Positions 43,108 to 52,052 of a stretch of DNA of 64,000 nt are shown here, piece after piece; position 1 is the first letter of the stretch, and each line of letters opens with the position of its first letter. The position numbers were made by a program, and so were the translations under genes. A model generated the notes under the pieces. The model saw only the letters and a program-made list of their open reading frames with translations. It was not told the DNA's origin and searched no databases. This DNA comes from an uncultured Carboxylicivirga sp. (GTDB taxonomy: Bacteria > Bacteroidota > Bacteroidia > Bacteroidales > Marinilabiliaceae): positions 1,426,001-1,490,000 of the forward strand of contig NZ_OY764327.1 of NCBI RefSeq assembly GCF_963668385.1. Reading direction: 5' to 3'.

Positions 43108-43731
43108 TTAGAAATAATAACCTACCCCCATACTAAAGGAATCAGTATTAAAATTAAACCCAAACTCAGAGCTTTTAGTTTCGTTTTCATGGTCTTCCGC
43201 TCCTTGGGTTATTTTTTCTTTAGTTCTTTGGTAAAACAAACTACCAAAATTTGCTTTTAACGCCCAATGTTCTGATAAAAAATAATTAATGCCTGGACGA
43301 ACATTTATGCTGTAAATAAATAAATTTTCAGTAAAGTCATCATCATCATTTGATTCTTTCCCAAATCCCAATGCAAGGTCAACAGTGGTTGTGAAAAATA
43401 ATTTATCTGTAATTTTTTGATAATTCTTGTAATAAGGGTTAATTGAAAATAGATGGTGTTTGGTTTCTGACTGACTTTCATATTTATTAAATTGATATCC
43501 AATACCAACACCTAATACTGATGACTCTGAAACAAACCAGCCAATTTTTGGGTTTATATAAAAGCGTTGTGTTTTATATTCATTGGTTTGATTATAATAA
43601 TCATTGTAACTATCATCATTAGATGATGAGTATCCGATATTTCCTTCTAATACTTTAATTCCTGTTTGTCCTTGAGCAAAAATAACCATTGGTATTAGGG
43701 TTATAATCACTAATAATAATTGCTTCTTCAT
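43108..43731 (-). CDS. Outer-membrane beta-barrel protein (cassette F, last of the array)
   Basis: 207 residues from the ATG at 43731, which starts a signal peptide (MKKQLLLVIITLIPMVIFAQ). The ATG at 43782 would lie inside the attC-like element side and is unlikely. The mature part is eight to ten amphipathic strands (FYINPKIGWFVSESSVLGVG, WALKANFGSLFYQR) ending SMGVGYYF, typical of a small PorT/OmpW-like barrel. An attC-like site ends 29 bp upstream. No R'' core is found after its stop, so its own recombination site is lost or this is the host edge. Confidence 0.7.
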   Translation of the reverse strand: MKKQLLLVIITLIPMVIFAQGQTGIKVLEGNIGYSSSNDDSYNDYYNQTNEYKTQRFYINPKIGWFVSESSVLGVGIGYQFNKYESQSETKHHLFSINPYYKNYQKITDKLFFTTTVDLALGFGKESNDDDDFTENLFIYSINVRPGINYFLSEHWALKANFGSLFYQRTKEKITQGAEDHENETKSSEFGFNFNTDSFSMGVGYYF

Positions 43732-43760
43732 TTTAATTTGAGTTATTTTTATTATGCTGT

Positions 43761-43891
43761 TGTTAACCTTTTCTCGCTTCACTCATGGCGCGTATGTCGT
43801 GGTGTCGTGTCACCCGTTAGGGAGACTAAGACGGTAGACAAAGGCGTCAGGGCGAGCAAAGCGCGCCATGATTTATACCAGTGTGTTGGGC
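43761..43891 (-). repeat. attC-like site E (131 bp)
   Basis: Read on the minus strand it opens with R'' GCCCAAC (43885-43891) and closes with R' GTTAACA (43761-43767). The inner arms CATGGCGCG and CGCGCCATG pair perfectly. The R'' half shares an 18-bp identity (CGAGCAAAGCGCGCCATG on the plus strand, 43853-43870) with site D. It separates cassette genes E and F. Confidence 0.65.
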
Positions 43892-43898
43892 AACATTC

Positions 43899-44546
43899 TT
43901 ATTTTTTACATATAATTGTTTTAAAACCAAAAGAATAGTTTTGGAATTTATAGGTGCTATTCTTTATTGTCGGTAACAATCCTAGCATACCGTAAAGTCC
44001 GAAACCTATGTTGAACTTATCTGTTGAAACAAAAACTCTGTTTAATTCAACATTAAGGCCTAAGTCATGTCTGTTTAAATTACTTAATTCTTTAATATCA
44101 TTAGTTTTATCGTTCCAACTTATTTCGTATTCTCTTGAATAGCCTTCACTTTTTCTAATCCTAGATAATAAATAAGAATAATATAAACCTGTTGTTATTG
44201 TTAGTTTTTTGCTTTTAGTGAGTTCTTTAAATCTAACATTTAGGGGTACACGTAAATAGTTCTGGGAATTCACAGTCTTGTCATACGCACTTATATCATC
44301 TACTATTAGTTTATTACCATTGTTCAAGTAACCAAATCCAGATTGAAAAAAGGTATTATTTTTAATGTTCATTTCTAGTAATAATGTGGCACCATAACTT
44401 TCTTTGAATTTATAGTCAGTGACAGAAGAGGGTTTGTTATAATAATTTGAAATTCCTCCATATAATTCAAATCCCCAAAATATATTTTGAGATGAAATAT
44501 TTATTGAGAAAAGAAATGAAAGTAATAAAAGTGTACTGATTCTCAT
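43899..44546 (-). CDS. Outer-membrane beta-barrel protein (cassette E)
   Basis: 215 residues with signal peptide MRISTLLLLSFLFSINISSQ. The mature sequence alternates strands (FQSGFGYLNNGNKLIVDD, KKLTITTGLYYSYLLSRIRK, VSTDKFNIGFGLYGMLG), like PorT/outer-membrane beta-barrel domain proteins. The function is unknown. The stop lies 7 bp before the R'' core of site E and the start ~75 bp after the R' core of site D, the layout of a gene in an integron cassette. Confidence 0.65.
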   Translation of the reverse strand: MRISTLLLLSFLFSINISSQNIFWGFELYGGISNYYNKPSSVTDYKFKESYGATLLLEMNIKNNTFFQSGFGYLNNGNKLIVDDISAYDKTVNSQNYLRVPLNVRFKELTKSKKLTITTGLYYSYLLSRIRKSEGYSREYEISWNDKTNDIKELSNLNRHDLGLNVELNRVFVSTDKFNIGFGLYGMLGLLPTIKNSTYKFQNYSFGFKTIICKK

Positions 44547-44620
44547 TTTATTGTTGTAAGTGTAATTTAATTCGAGATTAATTCAATTCTTATACGATTT
44601 AAATGTCGTTTGACAGACGA

Positions 44621-44691
44621 TGGTAACGTTTGCTTGATATAGGCATCAGAACGAGCAAAGCGCGCCATGCTTTATTTCCAGCGTGTTGGGC
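44621..44691 (-). repeat. attC-like site D (71 bp, partly degenerate)
   Basis: R'' GCCCAAC (44685-44691) and a poor R' GTTACCA (44621-44627). The R'' half matches site E closely but the pairing CGCGCCATG arm on the R' side is missing. A deletion or imprecise joining at the D/E junction is likely. Confidence 0.5.
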
Positions 44692-44706
44692 TTTCGTGCT
44701 TTGCTT

Positions 44707-44913
44707 TTATTTGTTGATAATCTTTTTCACAGAATCAATTTTTTCTTGCATTAAGTCATTGAATATTTCGTTGGCTTTTTCCAAGTTCTTAAAGAGTTTT
44801 TGAGTTTCATTTGTGTTTGAAGCTTGTTCAACAAATGTGTCTATCTTTTCTAAAACAGTTTTAAAGCTGTCTTTAATGTCAATTAAGAAATCGTTTTCAT
44901 TATTCATTTTCAT
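44707..44913 (-). CDS. Small acidic coiled-coil-like protein (cassette D, second frame)
   Basis: 68 residues, all helical, without membrane segment or cysteine. FLIDIKDSFKTVLEKIDTFVEQ and LFKNLEKANEIFNDLMQEKI have heptad-like hydrophobic spacing. No family is recognised. It ends 15 bp before the R'' core of site D. Two starts (44913, 44907) are possible. Confidence 0.5.
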   Translation of the reverse strand: MKMNNENDFLIDIKDSFKTVLEKIDTFVEQASNTNETQKLFKNLEKANEIFNDLMQEKIDSVKKIINK

Positions 44914-44940
44914 AATCGTTTAGGTTGATTCGTTACTGAT

Positions 44941-45117
44941 TTAATTTTTTTTGTCATATTGGTTAGAATAAATCATACCCAATATTAAAAATACCATTGA
45001 TATTATTCCTAGATAACTACCAGCATTAACTGTCCAACTTAAATTATTATAGTCAACAATAAACAGTTGTCCCGCTATTACTGCTAAAGCAAATATTATA
45101 AGTCCAATCTTAAATTT
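44941..45117 (-). pseudogene. Small membrane protein remnant without a start codon (cassette D, first frame)
   Basis: An open frame of 58 codons encodes two membrane helices: IGLIIFALAVIAGQLFIVDY and SYLGIISMVFLILGMIYSN. It ends in NQYDKKN. The protein resembles small conserved Bacteroidota membrane proteins that I know only by pattern. There is no ATG, GTG or TTG before the first helix in frame: the frame begins after a TAA, and AAAAATTTAAG just there suggests a one-base deletion in a start such as MKNLKIG. It lies 27 bp upstream of the 68-aa gene in the same cassette. Confidence 0.5.
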
Positions 45118-45183
45118 TTAATACTTAATTAAAGTGTTATTTATATTTTTTTTGAGCATAATATAATATGGTGGAGGCATGAA

Positions 45184-45261
45184 GCCCAACGGACGCGGCT
45201 ATGAAGCGTGGGCTTGTGTTGCGCCTGCGGCAAGCCTATGCTTTATAAGCCATTGTTGGCA
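45184..45261 (-). repeat. attC-like site C (78 bp)
   Basis: R'' TGCCAAC (45255-45261) and R' GTTGGGC (45184-45190), a full GTTRRRY match. Inner arms GGCTTATAAAGC / GCTTCATAGCC and AGGCTTG / CAAGCC pair across the loop. The loop shares 18 identical bases (TGTGTTGCGCCTGCGGCA on the plus strand, 45215-45232) with site B. An unpaired base or two in each arm is consistent with extrahelical bases. Confidence 0.8.
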
Positions 45262-45274
45262 ACTGAGATTTATA

Positions 45275-46975
45275 TTATCGTTTTATTACCTTATTAGAAT
45301 AAATAACATTTCCATTCAGATTGTTTATTGTCACTATATAAATTCCACTGGTTAAAGTGCTTGCATTTATTTTTAGTATTGTGTTTCTATGGGTCTTTTC
45401 AGAAACTAACTGTACTCCTGAAAGATTAAATACTTTGACAATATAATCTGATGATGCATCTTCAATTGAGACAATTATCTCCTTGTGCTTGTCAATAAAA
45501 CAATTAAAAATTCTTTGTTCTTCAGAATAACTATCTTCTATAGAAGAAGTAGGTACTTGACCAGTGCTAGCTATAGCGCCAATATCTATTATACTACCAT
45601 CTTCATCTTGTCTAGATGGATCTCCTGCGTCGATTGCAACAGAAGCAGAAGATAAGCAAACAAAATCATTATCATTTGAGTCACTACTTATGAATAATGG
45701 ATCTTCAAATAGATTGTAATAAGTGTCACATCCATCACTATTATTATTTGTAGTTATAACAACTCCAAAACCTAATAGCGTACCATTATAAAGAGAATTA
45801 TTGTTATAGAATAGGTTATACTCAATAGACCTTGGATCCCCCGTTCTTGACGTTTCCTTTGAAATGGCATATTGATTCCCCACAAAAATATTATTTGTAA
45901 TACTTGCTTCAAGTGTTTCTGAATCATACAAACGGACTCCATGAGTATTATTAAGGAAGGTATTATTAATATAAACCGGGGTTTCACCTCTTCTAGGATA
46001 AACACCTTTGTTATTATTATGAACTATATTCCTAGATATAGTAATATTACTTTCTGACATTATGCCTATGTCACATTGCGACACGTCATTACTCTCTATT
46101 GTAGCATTTGTAGAACTACCGGATATTCCAAAGAATGTACAATTTGTAACTTTATTTCCAGAGATAGTTGCTGTTGAACCAGAATTGCACAATAGTCCTC
46201 TACTCATATTTGTTGTGAAATTGTTTTTGATTTGAGCAGCACCTCCAAACTGTACATAGACTCCACCTCTCTCTGAGTTACGAACAATGCAATCTGAGAT
46301 CTCTAATTTACCACTGTTTTCAACATTTACTATTGCTTTTGCCTCTGATTCAGAACCAGCATACTCTAAAATGGAATGATTAATGACAGAAGTATTACTT
46401 CCATAAATAAAAACACCACCCCAATCACCAGAAGATTTAGTGCTTTCGGCTGATGTAAAAACTATGTTTTCCTCTATAGTTCCCTTACTAACTAATTTTC
46501 CATAAACTAACAGCTTACACTCTTTTTCAAATTGAATCAAAGTGCCTGGTTCTATTGTAAGTGTATTTCCTGTTGTAATTGTAGTGTTTCCCTCAATGTT
46601 GTAAACGGTGTTTTTATTCCATATTCCACTAACATTCCCCGATATATTTTCCAATGGTTGCGATGATAATGTTACATCAGTCAATACCTTATCCTCAGCT
46701 ATAAATATTTCTTGATTTACTTCATGAGTTTGATAGGTATCTTTTACATACTCAATTAAATAAATACCTGCCTTTACAGTTACGGAGAATGAACCATCAG
46801 ATATTGTATATCCGACGGAATATTCAGCCGTTGGAGATTGTGGTTTAAATATCACTTCGATACCCTCATGAGTATTCGAATTATCCAGATATGCATTCCC
46901 AGTCACAGTGATTGATAAGACTTTAGAGGCGGTAATGAAGAATAACAATAATGTTAATACGTATTTCATATTCAT
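45275..46975 (-). CDS. T9SS-sorted right-handed beta-helix protein (cassette C)
   Basis: 566 residues: signal peptide (MNMKYVLTLLLFFITASKVLS), a CarboxypepD_reg-like Ig domain (~22-110), and a parallel beta-helix of pectate-lyase/NosD type (~130-430) with repeats such as ISDCIVRNSERGGVYV and ISRNIVHNNNKGVYPRR. The C-terminal type A sorting domain (~490-566: IVKVFNLSGVQLV, LTSGIYIVTI, NKVIKR) directs export by the type IX secretion system. It may bind or cleave a polysaccharide; catalytic residues cannot be identified. The stop lies 13 bp before the R'' core of site C. Confidence 0.85.
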   Translation of the reverse strand: MNMKYVLTLLLFFITASKVLSITVTGNAYLDNSNTHEGIEVIFKPQSPTAEYSVGYTISDGSFSVTVKAGIYLIEYVKDTYQTHEVNQEIFIAEDKVLTDVTLSSQPLENISGNVSGIWNKNTVYNIEGNTTITTGNTLTIEPGTLIQFEKECKLLVYGKLVSKGTIEENIVFTSAESTKSSGDWGGVFIYGSNTSVINHSILEYAGSESEAKAIVNVENSGKLEISDCIVRNSERGGVYVQFGGAAQIKNNFTTNMSRGLLCNSGSTATISGNKVTNCTFFGISGSSTNATIESNDVSQCDIGIMSESNITISRNIVHNNNKGVYPRRGETPVYINNTFLNNTHGVRLYDSETLEASITNNIFVGNQYAISKETSRTGDPRSIEYNLFYNNNSLYNGTLLGFGVVITTNNNSDGCDTYYNLFEDPLFISSDSNDNDFVCLSSASVAIDAGDPSRQDEDGSIIDIGAIASTGQVPTSSIEDSYSEEQRIFNCFIDKHKEIIVSIEDASSDYIVKVFNLSGVQLVSEKTHRNTILKINASTLTSGIYIVTINNLNGNVIYSNKVIKR

Positions 46976-47018
46976 AAATTTTATAAGGTTATGTTTTAGT
47001 GATTTGCATTATCCTTGT

Positions 47019-47095
47019 TGCCAACGGCACGGCTATGCGCAGTGTGCCTGTGTTGCGCCTGCGGCAGGCATATTGCGTATGAGCCATTGTTAGCA
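47019..47095 (-). repeat. attC-like site B (77 bp)
   Basis: R'' TGCTAAC (47089-47095) and R' GTTGGCA (47019-47025). Inner arms GGCTCATACGCA / TGCGCATAGCC and GCCTG / CAGGC pair. The loop has the same 18-bp core as site C (47049-47066). It separates the genes at 47107 and 45275. Confidence 0.8.
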
Positions 47096-47106
47096 TTTCG
47101 TGCTTT

Positions 47107-48525
47107 TTATATTTTATAGTATAATGAATGGTCAATGATTATGTCCTCATGATTATTCTCTTTTTTAGTATAGTACTCCATTTCTGCTGAATAATTTTTC
47201 AAAAATCCACTGTAGCCAACCATTTTAAGAATTAAAATATTTACAAGAAACTGTAATTCAAATGCTCTTACAAAATTGTCATTGTTCACGGAACCCAATA
47301 AGTTTCCTTTTGGTATACTACCGTGCAAATACAAATTCCGATACTTTAAGGCTTTTTTAAATTTATCTGGCAGTTTTATATTATACTTCGATATTGAAAG
47401 TCCAATTTTGTCTGGATTTGTTGGTGAATTAATGTATTGTAGCTTCTTTTCTATCAAGAACTTTTTATCTGCTTTAGTTAGCTGTTCAGTTTCGTTAACA
47501 ACCTTTACTAATTTTGATAATATTTCGCTTTCATTAAATCGTTCTAGTTCAATCGGGTTTGTTTTGGAATCAAGCTTTACTAATCCGACAACTGTTTCTA
47601 AACAAGTTGAGAATAAAACACATTTGGATAAAGAATATTTATTCTGAACAGCTTCGATATATATTTCAATTACTCTTAAAAATTTTTCCTCATTAATAAT
47701 CTTTTCACATAGGTTTAGCAAAACCGTTTGAGGCAAAATATAATAGTCGTTCGTAAATTTGTATTCTCTAATTTCTATTGAATCATAAATAGGACTATTG
47801 TGATTATAGTTTTTCTCTCTGGTATAAAAACCTACTCGATTTATTGTCTGAAATGAAGTATCTGCTGAGGAAACAAAATAACAATCAGACTTAAAACCTG
47901 TCCCATATAAATAAGATAACGCTTTGAGCAATGCATCAATTCTTTTATCTATAAATTGTATGTCTTCTTTATTTAAGATATCAATCATAAGATATTTAAT
48001 ATCACCCTCGCTTACTCTGCAAACATGAATTTCTAAACCTGCAATATGAAATGAATTAAAACCAACACCATACATTACTTGCTGGTCTGTTTTCAATTCT
48101 TTATAGTTTTCTATTACTCCTACCTTTGCTTGCTTTTCAAAAGGAATTAGAAACCTCAAATATTCACTTTTGTATTCACTTAAGTTGTCTTGAATCATTG
48201 AGTTCAATTCTCCTTCAAATACTTGAGAAGCCAACCCTATATTTATGTTATCAGAAGCATATTTAAGGAAAGAGAATGAATCTTGTCCATTTTGTACTGT
48301 GTCCGAGTTAAATAACTTGTCAATATTCTTATAAATTGACGTATAGTTGTCCGCATTACTTGCATCTAAATAAAAGTGGAATTTATTATCCTTAAACCAA
48401 ATATCTAAATCAATACTATCAAAATATTTATCTGCACTCTCAACTTTATAAGCCTTCCTGATTTTAAATTCAGACAGTTTCGCAAACGTTGCATTTACAT
48501 ACTTATATTCAGATGAAGGTCTCAT
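47107..48525 (-). CDS. Hypothetical 472-aa protein with a HEPN-like motif (cassette B)
   Basis: No named family is recognised. The protein is soluble with mixed alpha/beta predicted structure. Near the C-terminus is KALKYRNLYLHGS (about residues 391-403), which fits the Rx4H core (R-N-x-x-x-H) of HEPN RNases and ApeA-like abortive-infection proteins. The preceding region is helical, as expected of HEPN. This suggests, but does not prove, an RNase of a phage-defence or toxin type, a common cargo in integron cassettes. The start is 36 bp after the R' core of site A and the stop is 11 bp before the R'' core of site B. Confidence 0.6.
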   Translation of the reverse strand: MRPSSEYKYVNATFAKLSEFKIRKAYKVESADKYFDSIDLDIWFKDNKFHFYLDASNADNYTSIYKNIDKLFNSDTVQNGQDSFSFLKYASDNINIGLASQVFEGELNSMIQDNLSEYKSEYLRFLIPFEKQAKVGVIENYKELKTDQQVMYGVGFNSFHIAGLEIHVCRVSEGDIKYLMIDILNKEDIQFIDKRIDALLKALSYLYGTGFKSDCYFVSSADTSFQTINRVGFYTREKNYNHNSPIYDSIEIREYKFTNDYYILPQTVLLNLCEKIINEEKFLRVIEIYIEAVQNKYSLSKCVLFSTCLETVVGLVKLDSKTNPIELERFNESEILSKLVKVVNETEQLTKADKKFLIEKKLQYINSPTNPDKIGLSISKYNIKLPDKFKKALKYRNLYLHGSIPKGNLLGSVNNDNFVRAFELQFLVNILILKMVGYSGFLKNYSAEMEYYTKKENNHEDIIIDHSLYYKI

Positions 48526-48560
48526 TAATTCTCAATTATATTTGCGGTTCTTTGCATGAA

Positions 48561-48753
48561 TGCTAACGTCTCGCATATGAGGCTGTGTGGGGATTGAAAT
48601 TGTCTGCCTTTCAATAACAGCACTAAGCCCGATGCTTTTCAAACGACTAATTTAATAATCATAAGTTGATTAAAAAGCATTGGGCGGACAAATAGAAATC
48701 ACCACCGCTCGCGAATCACTGCACCCCACATGCCTTATAATGCATTGTTAGGC
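48561..48753 (-). repeat. attC-like site A (193 bp)
   Basis: R'' GCCTAAC (48747-48753, perfect RYYYAAC) and R' GTTAGCA (48561-48567). The arms AATGCATTATAAGGC / GCCTCATATGCGAGAC and TGTGGGG / CCCCACA pair, and a further inner pair (CCCAATGCTTTTT / GAAAAGCATCGGGC) makes one long imperfect hairpin. It is longer than most attC sites (about 55-150 bp). The stop codon of the gene at 48748 is inside the R'' core. Confidence 0.7.
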
Positions 48754-49305
48754 AACGTATTTTTCTATTTCTTTTATAATTTCTTCTTTTATTTTATTCC
48801 TTATTTTCCAATCTTTTATCGCAAAAAAAGGTGTTTTCATATTTCTAAATCCCATTGAGAATACGTTTACTAAGACTTTATCCTCCCGAAACAATATAAT
48901 TAAATACCGTCCATTAGTCCAATTTTTATCATCTGGAAATGCAATAATATATTCTTTATTATTTCTTGATAGCTTCCATGTCGGTTTTAATATTTCGAGG
49001 CAAACTTCACGATTCGTTTTACTATTAATTCCATCGATATCAATAAAAGCATTTTCTTTTCCTAACCAAATTCCCCACACTATAATCCAGCCTAAACTAA
49101 TTAAGACGAAAAATATATTCTGCCACCAATTATGATAATAAGTATTTGTATCAATCTGATGTGAGATATTAATAAAACAGAGTATTGGTAAAAATCCTAT
49201 TCCCACAAAGTAATATAGATTATTAATAATCAAGTCAATTAAACCTGTCTTGAATATCAATCTATTGCATTTTATTGATTTCTTATAATTGATTTTAAAT
49301 ATCAT
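48748..49305 (-). CDS. Hypothetical two-helix membrane protein (cassette A)
   Basis: 185 residues with two membrane segments (about 31-46 and 64-82) and a soluble C-terminal domain of strands and a final helix (KIRNKIKEEIIKEIEKYVA). The tail domain is compatible with a small PH-like (YcxB-type) fold, but this is a weak guess. The TAA stop is shared with the R'' core GCCTAAC of site A, so gene and recombination site overlap. The start is 42 bp after the R' core at 49348. Confidence 0.6.
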   Translation of the reverse strand: MIFKINYKKSIKCNRLIFKTGLIDLIINNLYYFVGIGFLPILCFINISHQIDTNTYYHNWWQNIFFVLISLGWIIVWGIWLGKENAFIDIDGINSKTNREVCLEILKPTWKLSRNNKEYIIAFPDDKNWTNGRYLIILFREDKVLVNVFSMGFRNMKTPFFAIKDWKIRNKIKEEIIKEIEKYVA

Positions 49306-49347
49306 TAAATCTATTTACTAATACTTCGTTCTGTGAATCAATATGTT

Positions 49348-49354
49348 GCCTAAC
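49348..49354 (-). repeat. R' core bordering the first cassette
   Basis: On the minus strand GTTAGGC, a perfect GTTRRRY, begins the unit of the gene at 48748-49305. It is the exact reverse complement of that unit's own R'' core (GCCTAAC at 48747). No R'' partner is recognised on the other side (49355-49420), so the preceding site is decayed or this is an attI-like edge. Confidence 0.55.
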
Positions 49355-50017
49355 TACTTTATATCCGCCATTACTTCCTATTCTTTTGTAACGCCTTGAA
49401 TTTATGGAACAAAATCATTTTAATTACTTATAGTCGTTTATTAAAAAAAATACGTTTATAAACGATTAAGCAATTGCCCCACATGGTTGAAGGAAAAAAG
49501 CAAATAGGTGAGTAATAGAGATTCATAGTATTTGGTTAGAAATTAACGTTTACAAAAATAGTAGAATACGGGTATTATGCTAAAAAACCATTGCGTTATT
49601 AGTTTAACGAAGTAAAACAGAAGATAAATGGTAGTTTTATGTATTTCAACAACAAACACATTATAAATACATACTTATGTGTCTTTTATTGTTATACAAG
49701 TGGTGTAACTAAAAGCACAGAACTTGTTTATTAGTTAAATAAAAGGGCTGTTTGTTAGAAGAAATTGCCGTGGTAAGCAAAATATTGCTCAGGGAAGGGT
49801 TAAATATGCCAATGGGAACTATTATTTGACCGGTAATTTTAGATATTTTACTCAGGAAGCTTGTCAAATTGCTCAGGGGCGGCTTAAAATTGCTGATTAT
49901 TTTCAAAAAAACGACCAAATATGCGGTTCTCATAAGTGATTAACCACTATATTTTACTCGTTGAGATTGATATTTTGCCCGTTGAGATCGAAATTTTGCA
50001 TAAAAAAGGGTGAATAT
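49355..50017. other. Gene-free 0.7-kb stretch with short repeats
   Basis: No credible gene is seen; minus-strand frames such as 49709-49933 lack family features. Two 21-bp direct repeats (attttactcgttgagattga at 49951 and attttgcccgttgagatcga at 49972) and three TGCTCAGG-like words (49789, 49853, 49869) stand out. It borders the cassette array on the side where an integrase and attI would be expected, and neither is present. Confidence 0.5.
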
Positions 50018-50067: not shown

Positions 50068-50757
50068 TTAAGCTTTAATGTACTTTTTAAGTCGCTCATC
50101 ATTCTTCCAAAAAACATAACGACCATACTCTCTTATTTCCTGTACTTTTTTATAAAGAAGGGTATAAGCTTTATCTCGTAATAATTTATTTCCGCCACCC
50201 TCTTCTGCTGTTCCGTTAGCTTGAGCCAGCAATTCCGATAGAGAATGCGAGAGCTTCTTTGCCTCTTGTAAAACAGGCATATCAAAGTTAATTGTCCCAA
50301 GCGGTTGAGGATTATTTTCTCCAAGTACAGCCAGTTCTATTAAATCCTGAATCATATCGGCATTGCTGCTTCCCTCACGTAAACGACGGACTTTTTGTAG
50401 CAGGTTACTGTCTTTACGGTAGGCAAATGTAAAATGATGCAGCATATCATCTCTTAGCTTATAAGCCTCAGGAGACTGCTGCTGCCATTCTTTTTGGGCC
50501 TCCTGACGGGCTCTGAATTCACTCATCCAATTCGCCTGTATATAACGCAGTGCTCCGGTAAGTGGAGTGACTTCGTCGATAATTTTTACATCAAGGCCTG
50601 CACCGGTTAATGCTTCCTTATCACGCTGGGCCTCTATGGCCAGGGTCTCACACGATGCTGCAAAATCATCAATGGGTTGATTGGGTAATTTAACCTCACC
50701 ATCGGGCACTGCTTCAATCAATTCTTTCCATTCCTCATAGTTTTCGTTGAAACTCAT
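50068..50757 (-). CDS. Hypothetical 229-aa helical protein (DUF6261-like)
   Basis: An all-helical protein rich in Gln, Glu and Ala (RARQEAQKEWQQQSPEAYKL, DKAYTLLYKKVQEIREYGRY), with no signal peptide. It resembles Bacteroidota DUF6261-type proteins that are often found near mobile or repeat-rich DNA. The assignment is tentative. Base composition is more GC-rich than the adjacent cassettes. Confidence 0.55.
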   Translation of the reverse strand: MSFNENYEEWKELIEAVPDGEVKLPNQPIDDFAASCETLAIEAQRDKEALTGAGLDVKIIDEVTPLTGALRYIQANWMSEFRARQEAQKEWQQQSPEAYKLRDDMLHHFTFAYRKDSNLLQKVRRLREGSSNADMIQDLIELAVLGENNPQPLGTINFDMPVLQEAKKLSHSLSELLAQANGTAEEGGGNKLLRDKAYTLLYKKVQEIREYGRYVFWKNDERLKKYIKA

Positions 50758-51059: not shown

Positions 51060-52052
51060 CCCCCATCGCCCTAACGGGCACTTCCCCAAGGGGAAGAGTA
51101 TGCACGGGTAGGATGCTCCCTTTGGGGAGCTGTCCGCAGGACTGAGGGGGGTGTTTCTAACGTGGATTGAATACATGAGAATAATAAAAGTAATATGATT
51201 CGAAAGTTAATACCCCCATCGCCCTATGGGCACTTCCCCAAGGGGAGGAGTATGCACGGGTAGGATGCTCCCTTTGGGGAGCTGTCCGCAGGACTGAGGG
51301 GGTGTTTCTCTCGTGGATTGAATACATGAGAATAATAAAAAGGAATCTGATTCGAAAGTTAATACCCCCATCGCCCTAACGGGCACTTCCCCAAGGGGAA
51401 GAGTATGCTCGGGTAAAATGCTCCCCTCGGGGAGCTGTCCGCAGGACTGAGGGGTTGTTTCTCACGCGGATTGAATACAGGAGAATAATAAAAAGGAATT
51501 TGATTAGCAGTTTAATACCCCCATCGCCCTAACGGGCACTTCCCCAAGGGGAAGAGTATGCACGGGTAGGATGCTCCCCTCGGGGAGCTGTCCGCAGGAC
51601 TGAGGGGGTGTTTTCTCACGTGGATTGAACCCGGGGTTAAAAATAAGCAAGGCACTGCCGCACTTAGTGCTGTTTTTTATTATCAAATGGTGTTGCGGCA
51701 GGAAATAAAAAGCCATTCAACCCTCTTCAGGGTTGGGTAACCAATACCTTGAAACCACGGGTTTCACCCGCGGCTATTATTGTTAATGTCCTTCAGACAT
51801 TTTTAAAAGTTGATTAATAATTCTGATGATGGCAAAAATGGACTTGCAAATTAGTTCCCCCATCGCCCTATGGGCACTTCCCCAAGGGGAAGAGTATGCT
51901 CGGGTAGGATGCTCCCCTCGGGGAGCTGTCCGCAGGACTGAGGGGGGTGTTTCTCACGTGGATTGAATAAAAGAGAAGAATAAAAAGTAATATGATTCGA
52001 AAATTAATACCCCCATCGCCCTATGGGCACTTCCCCAGGGGGAAGAGTATGC
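51060..52052 (+). repeat. Array of six GC-rich repeat units with ~153-bp period
   Basis: Units at 51060-51151, 51213-51304, 51365-51457, 51518-51610, 51857-51949 and 52010-52052 (truncated). Each opens CCCCCATCGCCCTA and ends CTGTCCGCAGGACTGAGGGG. Arms CTTCCCCAAGGGGAAG and CTCCCCTCGGGGAG are palindromic, so each unit folds into two hairpins. The 60-bp spacers are themselves related (GTGGATTGAATACATGAGAATAATAAAA), so the true unit is the whole ~153 bp, repeated in tandem. Similar GC-rich repeats are widespread in Bacteroidia genomes. No coding function is seen. Confidence 0.85.
51718..51802 (+). repeat. Palindromic repeat inserted in the 153-bp array
   Basis: CAACCCT-CTTC-AGGGTTG (51718-51735), CGGGTTTCACCCG (~51759-51771) and AATGTC-CTTCA-GACATT (51785-51801) are three hairpins in a row. 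This is a known-looking type of Bacteroidota intergenic repeat. It lies where the regular period is broken (339 bp instead of 153), so it probably inserted in or replaced a unit. Confidence 0.6.

Follow-up and report, generated by a model that had tools for sequence, protein, structure and literature searches.

The 64,000-nt stretch of Carboxylicivirga DNA considered here (the window; positions 1,426,001-1,490,000 of a single 6.27-Mb contig) holds at 43761-49354 a series of minus-strand genes separated by imperfect palindromes. Judging from sequence comparisons, we are rather confident that these genes are integron-type cassettes at an orphan attI-like docking site, that they belong to a class of integrons whose integrase lacks the I2 domain, and that the site is probably served in trans. 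An I2-less tyrosine recombinase heads a large cassette array of the same genome, ca 1.5 Mb from the window array.

The cassettes of the window

An earlier note on this DNA described five palindromes with the R'' and R' core motifs of integron attC sites. All five sites and their cores were confirmed at the following positions.

48561..48753, minus: site s1, GCCTAAC...GTTAGCA, 193 nt
47019..47095, minus: site s2, class B
45184..45261, minus: site s3, class B, 79% identical to s2
44621..44691, minus: site s4, 5' half matching class A, 3' half weak or degraded
43761..43891, minus: site s5, class A, last site of the array, aligned with the class-A sites of the other arrays of the genome

Site s2 has a counterpart in the large array, at 2747430, with 95% identity over 84 nt. 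Matches in the genus were found for s1 (83% over 180 nt in relative G691, on a contig that also carries two linked mirrored cassettes), for s3 (97% over 66 nt in G689) and for s5, which has many matches of 77-87% in C. linearis (G685). Folded in isolation as DNA, s1 (z -3.07 on the bottom strand) and s5 (z between -2.1 and -2.2) do better than shuffles, while s2 and s3 do so on the bottom strand only (z -1.53 and -1.66). The weakest of the five sites is s4.

Integron cassettes have their own R' half at the start and R'' at the end, and the two ends are thus expected to mirror each other. The borders were therefore examined with a mirrored-end test, in which the start box of a unit (GTT...) has to mirror its own end box (...AAC). 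This test was adopted in place of a simple R''/R' scan with strict arm rules, which missed all five sites. Two of the four sites behind a covariance model (R1) are from the window; the hits of the model are circular and were left out of the evidence. At gathering thresholds, Rfam gave only tRNAs in the window, with one sub-threshold match in the array.

Mirroring was found in four of the five units, over 10, 9, 9 and 9 nt (k in the list below). In the window outside the array (1-42000), only 12 of 26,795 GTT/AAC pairs lying 300-2000 nt apart mirror over at least 9 nt, and four mirrored units at borders named beforehand are consequently far beyond chance. The units, with their open reading frames (ORFs), are the following.

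48747..49354, minus: cassette 1, k=10, mirrored ends GTTAGGCAAC; ORF 48748-49305, 185 aa, without Pfam match
47089..48567, minus: cassette 2, k=9; ORF 47107-48525, 472 aa, without Pfam match
45255..47025, minus: cassette 3, k=9; ORF 45275-46975, 566 aa, right-handed beta-helix/NosD with a Por secretion tail
44685..45190, minus: cassette 4, k=9; ORF 44707-44913, 68 aa
43885..44627, minus: unit 5, ends not mirrored; ORF 43899-44546, 215 aa, outer-membrane beta-barrel family
43108..43782, minus: beta-barrel gene past the last site, no mirrored end found at the window locus

Cassette 2 was matched in 2 of 393 genomes of the order, the own genome included. The array was also compared with four genus relatives, for each of which 40 of 102-193 candidate matches were scored; the following statements refer to the scored matches. 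Body matches were found only for part of cassette 4 and for the gene past the last site. Strict conservation of gene order with intact flanks, which the earlier note had named as evidence against its proposal, was not seen in the four genomes: the flanks are not syntenic there, and no empty site was found. For the aldo/keto reductase of the flank, the 13 other genomes of the genus gave no match at E<=1e-100. The match of cassette 4 (74% over ca 179 nt) lies in G686 (contig C55), where no mirrored-end chain was found around it. The gene at 43108-43782 has a match of 73% over 590 nt in C. linearis, which by eye is flanked by two class-A-like sites, and on this ground the gene may be a cassette gene whose own site was lost here.

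The docking element

The left border of the array, 49354/49355, coincides with the end of a repeated element, and the conservation between the copies stops at GTT. The earlier note saw no attI in the window; this part of it has to be revised, since the array starts where a conserved element ends, of which other copies are joined to other DNA. We read this recurring element as an orphan attI-like site. No integrase gene was seen beside it.

49355..49700, minus: orphan attI-like docking element, ending ...GATATAAAGTA at 49355, directly before GTT
50068..50757, minus: 229-aa gene in the same repeated module as the docking element, no Pfam match, three identical copies in the genome

The three modules of the own genome are 99% identical over the 450 nt before GTT, whereas the 50 nt after GTTR match at 16 of 50 positions (15-22 of 50 among the copies). 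A 131-nt border query found four places in this genome, three of them at 100% over 119-131 nt. Two cassettes (k=10 each) follow dock 1, which is one of the other docks. The fourth, weak match directly adjoins the start of a cassette at 5,692,340, and a class-A site lies farther on. The same query gave three places in C. linearis (90, 88 and 80% over ca 120 nt) and weaker ones in four other genomes of the genus. One of the C. linearis copies is the same module with the 229-aa gene, while the upstream DNA of the other two is different, the shared part covering ca 350 and ca 275 bp up to GTT; each of the three is followed by different DNA from GTT on. Similar endings also occur in some integrase-linked regions of other genomes, for example ...TATAAACTA^GTT.

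A motif search of the docking element for a Bacteroidota-type promoter gave no full match and one -7-like match. Two observations concern the surroundings of the element: a tandem repeat of ca 153 bp (3.7 copies) lies upstream of the 229-aa gene within the repeated module, at window positions 51060-51629, and one C. linearis copy (contig C180, locus L221) is located downstream of a gene whose product, by eye, resembles an HU-family DNA-binding protein.

The large array, its integrase and their relatives

The recombinase that heads the large array (490 aa; 2,984,834-2,986,303, minus) is the genome's top IntI-like match. It scores 195.6 bits with the integron-integrase model TIGR02249, below the cut-off of 265, and the XerA, XerC and XerD models score similarly. 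No gene of the 6.27-Mb contig is above the IntI cut-off. The earlier note saw no intI in the window; the genome as a whole is not free of integrase, as it has this I2-less enzyme at 2.98 Mb. The reading frame of the gene is open, and the presumed catalytic motifs look intact.

The ca 42-residue segment that holds the I2 "additional domain" of integron integrases is missing from the protein. The spacing between the KGxKDR and HxLRH motifs is 64-65 residues in all 38 I2-less proteins (64 in the own one), as compared to 106 in all 20 IntI proteins; the two Xer-type proteins of the genome have 72 and 70, and an insertion-element recombinase has 68. In the alignment with PDB 2a3v ("IntI4"), 28 residues of the integrase are opposite 71 of the chain (179-249). 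Residues 1 to ca 200 have no Pfam match above cut-off, and the relatives match them to varying extents. When the N-terminal 205 aa were searched against 395 genomes of the phylum, the own genome was the sole match, and the full protein was therefore used for the search of the order.

The tree unites the 20 IntI proteins with support (100/99) and places the 38 I2-less ones beside them. The latter appear as a single group in 19% of the bootstrap trees; the tree has two changes, with one change also compatible. The Xer-type proteins of the genome (329 and 302 aa) branch outside the I2-less integrases (100/99), and the insertion-element recombinase is placed next to IntI on a long branch.

The distance from the integrase stop to the first cassette is 42 bp, which is the right place for an attI. 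With a class-A site of the large array as query, 76 candidates were obtained; 40 were scored, of which 37 lie on the minus strand between 2,744,263 and 2,982,090. A mirrored-end chain search gave at least 99 cassettes and 90 linked sites from 2,984,788 to 2,745,302, while five shuffles gave 0-3 cassettes. All 99 cassettes are mirrored over at least 9 nt, 79 of them over at least 10. Three large gaps (43-54 kb each) and several smaller ones interrupt the chain, and the ca 240 kb are therefore a span and not proven continuous cassette DNA. The large gaps without a mirrored-end chain are 2976531-2922241, 2895010-2846926 and 2833269-2790635. The longest ORF runs along the array direction in 77 of the 99 cassettes and opposite to it in 21, and 14 cassettes are without an ORF of 60 aa. 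Ten groups of exact duplicate cassettes at separate places were found. Smaller arrays are present at 3.72, 5.29 and 5.69 Mb.

A side observation concerns an IS91-like element, whose end is present in nine copies (2913318, 2975737, 2742822, 3703994, 3706408, 3728442, 3735828, 3738233 and 190009), all directly after an R''-like box. Three copies are near full length, with a tyrosine recombinase and a transposase, and most others are short end pieces. In five of the nine cases the box mirrors an upstream GTT start over at least 9 nt, as compared to 5 of 180 control draws. The element may target attC sites.

In a comparison of these 99 cassettes and the five units of the window with 27 loci, a match was counted if it covered more than 60% of the length. 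Three of the 99 recur at full length in other species: in Marinifilum fragile (563/563 nt, 97.5%), in C. linearis (523/523 nt, 100%, the contig ending inside the shared attC) and in the Marinilabiliaceae bacterium A049 (647 nt, 94%). The A049 cassette has indels and was judged by its ends and the BLAST range, the block counts being ungapped. The 5' DNA before GTT is unrelated in all three cases, and in Marinifilum and A049 a class-A-type attC comes after the shared cassette, and the next cassette beyond it differs.

Relatives of the integrase were found, as protein matches only, in 107 of 295 genomes of the order at E<=1e-40, and in 12 of 14 genomes of the genus; a scan of viral contigs gave none. 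A first set of 20 loci, chosen by score and, as far as this was visible from the coordinates, by downstream room, was supplemented by 17 others, of which 13 are from the genus. Together with the own locus this gives 38 I2-less loci, of which 25 have at least 1,500 bp downstream and are testable. A first cassette mirrored over at least 9 nt was found within 400 bp downstream in 20 of these 25, in 14 over at least 10 nt; the corresponding values are 7.4% for shuffles and 4/115 for upstream control starts. Of the 13 loci left out, three (L198, L204 and L205) carry a mirrored first cassette on their short ends. In four of the first 20 loci the contig ends 167-436 bp past the integrase match, as is expected if repeats break the assembly. 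The gene is in two pieces in the genus relative G693 (L180), and C. linearis has a broken second copy beside an intact one (L187). Single stops at several other integrase matches of the genus had been taken for broken genes; this was dropped, since open frames carry the whole score.

For control, 20 IntI-type loci were taken from the 105 of 395 phylum genomes with an IntI above cut-off. The chain beats every shuffle in 16 of them, upstream of intI in 12 and downstream in 4. A mirrored box of 10 nt was considered as a speciality of the own genome, and this idea was given up because the IntI controls have mirrored boxes of 8-15 nt too. At one of the IntI loci (L156, in G043), two adjoining downstream units have an equal length of 1157 nt and 13-nt mirrored ends, and are perhaps a duplicated cassette.

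We now turn to the architecture of the attC sites, compared for 78 distinct sites of the own genome, 39 from 17 other I2-less loci and 45 from 11 IntI loci. Wobbles were counted in the part of the stem that adjoins the core boxes, as arm differences giving a G.T pair on the bottom strand and a mismatch on the top one, or the reverse. The bottom-to-top ratio is 156:13 in the own genome, where the count is inflated by related copies, 66:4 at the other I2-less loci and 4:4 at the IntI loci. Within the window the pattern is present in s1-s3; in s4 a single position of this kind lies within a short match, and s5 is without any. We regard the asymmetry as a new lead and not as a proven recognition code. 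The IntI-linked sites have an average of 2.1 bulged bases in the 5' arm; at least two bulges were found in 33 of these 45 sites, in 4 of the 39 other I2-less sites and in 49 of the 78 own ones.

Competing explanations and known systems

Taken together, these comparisons make a wider reading reasonably probable, namely an I2-less integron class found across the Bacteroidales (in the GTDB sense), with wobble-marked attC sites and several dispersed orphan attI sites fed in trans. As to the mechanism, we infer that the I2-less integrase would excise circular cassettes by attC x attC recombination and insert them at attI, cutting G^TT. Its substrate would be the attC bottom strand folded as a hairpin, and the choice of strand would be marked by the G.T wobbles (A.C mismatches on the top strand), and not by extrahelical bases only. 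The integrase at 2.98 Mb, or a lost relative of it, would have filled the orphan docking site of the window in trans, as suggested by the fact that the sites of the window and of the large array belong to the same site families.

It is important to point out that a number of results weigh against this reading. In the window, the fifth unit (44627-43885) has no mirroring past GTT/AAC, the folding of s4 is not superior to that of shuffles, and no unit of the five had a match covering 60% of its length in the 27 loci. Among the docks, the fourth own match is weak (70%, E 0.008) and dock 2 gave no clean cassette chain. The orphan element and the integrase-linked attI of the genome share little sequence beyond GTT, which means that service in trans is not proved. 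At the relatives, the first-cassette test failed in 5 of the 25 testable I2-less loci, and the looser whole-region chain score beat every shuffle in only 7 of 20. A simpler version, in which extrahelical bases are absent from the sites, is ruled out for the own genome by its bulges. To the same side belongs the stability of the bottom strand, which is the more stable one in 72 of the 78 sites of the own genome, in 30 of the 39 from other I2-less loci and in 23 of the 45 IntI-linked sites.

Among the alternatives, it is possible, but in our view unlikely, that the enzyme acts on ordinary double-stranded Xer-like sites and that the hairpin arms are mere inverted binding sites. Its sequence is close to XerA/XerC, inverted repeats are seen by eye in several attI-like regions, and the sites of other I2-less loci have few bulges; set against this are the wobble asymmetry (66:4 and 156:13) and the longest ORF along the array in 77 of the 99 cassettes, which together suggest that one strand is the substrate. 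It is distinctly improbable that the cassettes are fossils, shuffled at present by RecA-type recombination between near-identical sites or repeats while the integrase is inactive. Such a scenario would fit the mean column identity of 92% among eight class-A sites and the damaged genes of G693 and C. linearis, yet the own integrase is open with presumably intact motifs, the units common to several species have unrelated 5' flanks and edges at GTT, and the docking elements are followed by unrelated DNA.

The earlier note had proposed a CALIN-type cluster (CALIN being the IntegronFinder term for a cassette cluster without a neighbouring integrase). This stands as far as a cassette array in a Bacteroidota chromosome with no integrase gene beside it is concerned; what has to be added is the docking element and the large array with a non-canonical integrase elsewhere. 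That the array is a plain CALIN, the remainder of a canonical IntI integron with its integrase lost or located elsewhere, is a little less probable still than the fossil scenario: the array is indeed without integrase and IntI is found in 105 of the 395 phylum genomes, but the own genome has no gene over the cut-off, the site architecture is unlike that of the sampled IntI-linked arrays, the same site families are used by the array of the I2-less integrase, and a docking element is present. Finally, intergenic repeats are common in Bacteroidota, and the palindromes could be unrelated ones (REP-like or transposon ends) between ordinary genes; this we give hardly any credence, as it is contradicted by the mirrored ends, by chains of up to dozens of units and by the edges of the shared units.

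If the I2-less reading is correct, the system would be a living sister or forerunner of the IntI integrons, and the I2 helix would not be needed to build superintegrons. The origin of integrons would become directly testable, the array of ca 240 kb would open a large overlooked pool of cassettes, and it would show how domain-based surveys can miss such systems.

In the accepted view, the origin of integrons lies in the acquisition of the I2 helix by a Xer-like enzyme; this helix docks the extrahelical attC bases and permits single-strand recombination (PMC7790495). Surveys call integrases by the I2 domain (PMC9668308). Bacteroidota are listed among the integron-bearing phyla (PMC8618304, PMC9668308), with Salinibacter ruber M1 as a complete integron in Bacteroidetes per IntegronFinder 2.0 (PMC9024848); the occurrence of integrons in the phylum is no novelty in itself. 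I2-less integrons were found in none of the titles and abstract beginnings listed by searches of the open PMC subset, the scope of which excludes preprints and subscription papers.

By the printed definition, which includes I2, the present system is outside the IntI integrons; it has the construction of such an integron and probably also its mode of operation. Superintegrons of the V. cholerae type have IntI at the head, an adjacent attI and a long cassette array. The Carboxylicivirga system resembles such sedentary chromosomal integrons in its head integrase, attI-like region, long array and hairpins with mirrored R boxes, as well as in its mostly same-direction ORFs and its gene-less and duplicated cassettes. 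It differs from them in the integrase without I2, the bottom-strand G.T wobbles, the orphan docking elements, and a large array that lies downstream of the integrase gene and is co-directional with it. The IntI integrons of other Bacteroidota classes have mirrored cassette ends of similar length, but the I2 segment is present in all 20 examined. With CALINs, the window array shares the absence of a neighbouring integrase, while its attI-like docking element and the different, unusual integrase of the genome set it apart. According to PMC4792948, no Xer dimer-resolution recombinase was known to have an I2-like domain, and the stem of CTXphi is described as having no extrahelical bases. The Xer recombinases and the Xer-exploiting CTXphi are thus similar to the present case in being without I2; the difference is that here the integrase heads an attI-like region and dozens of cassettes.

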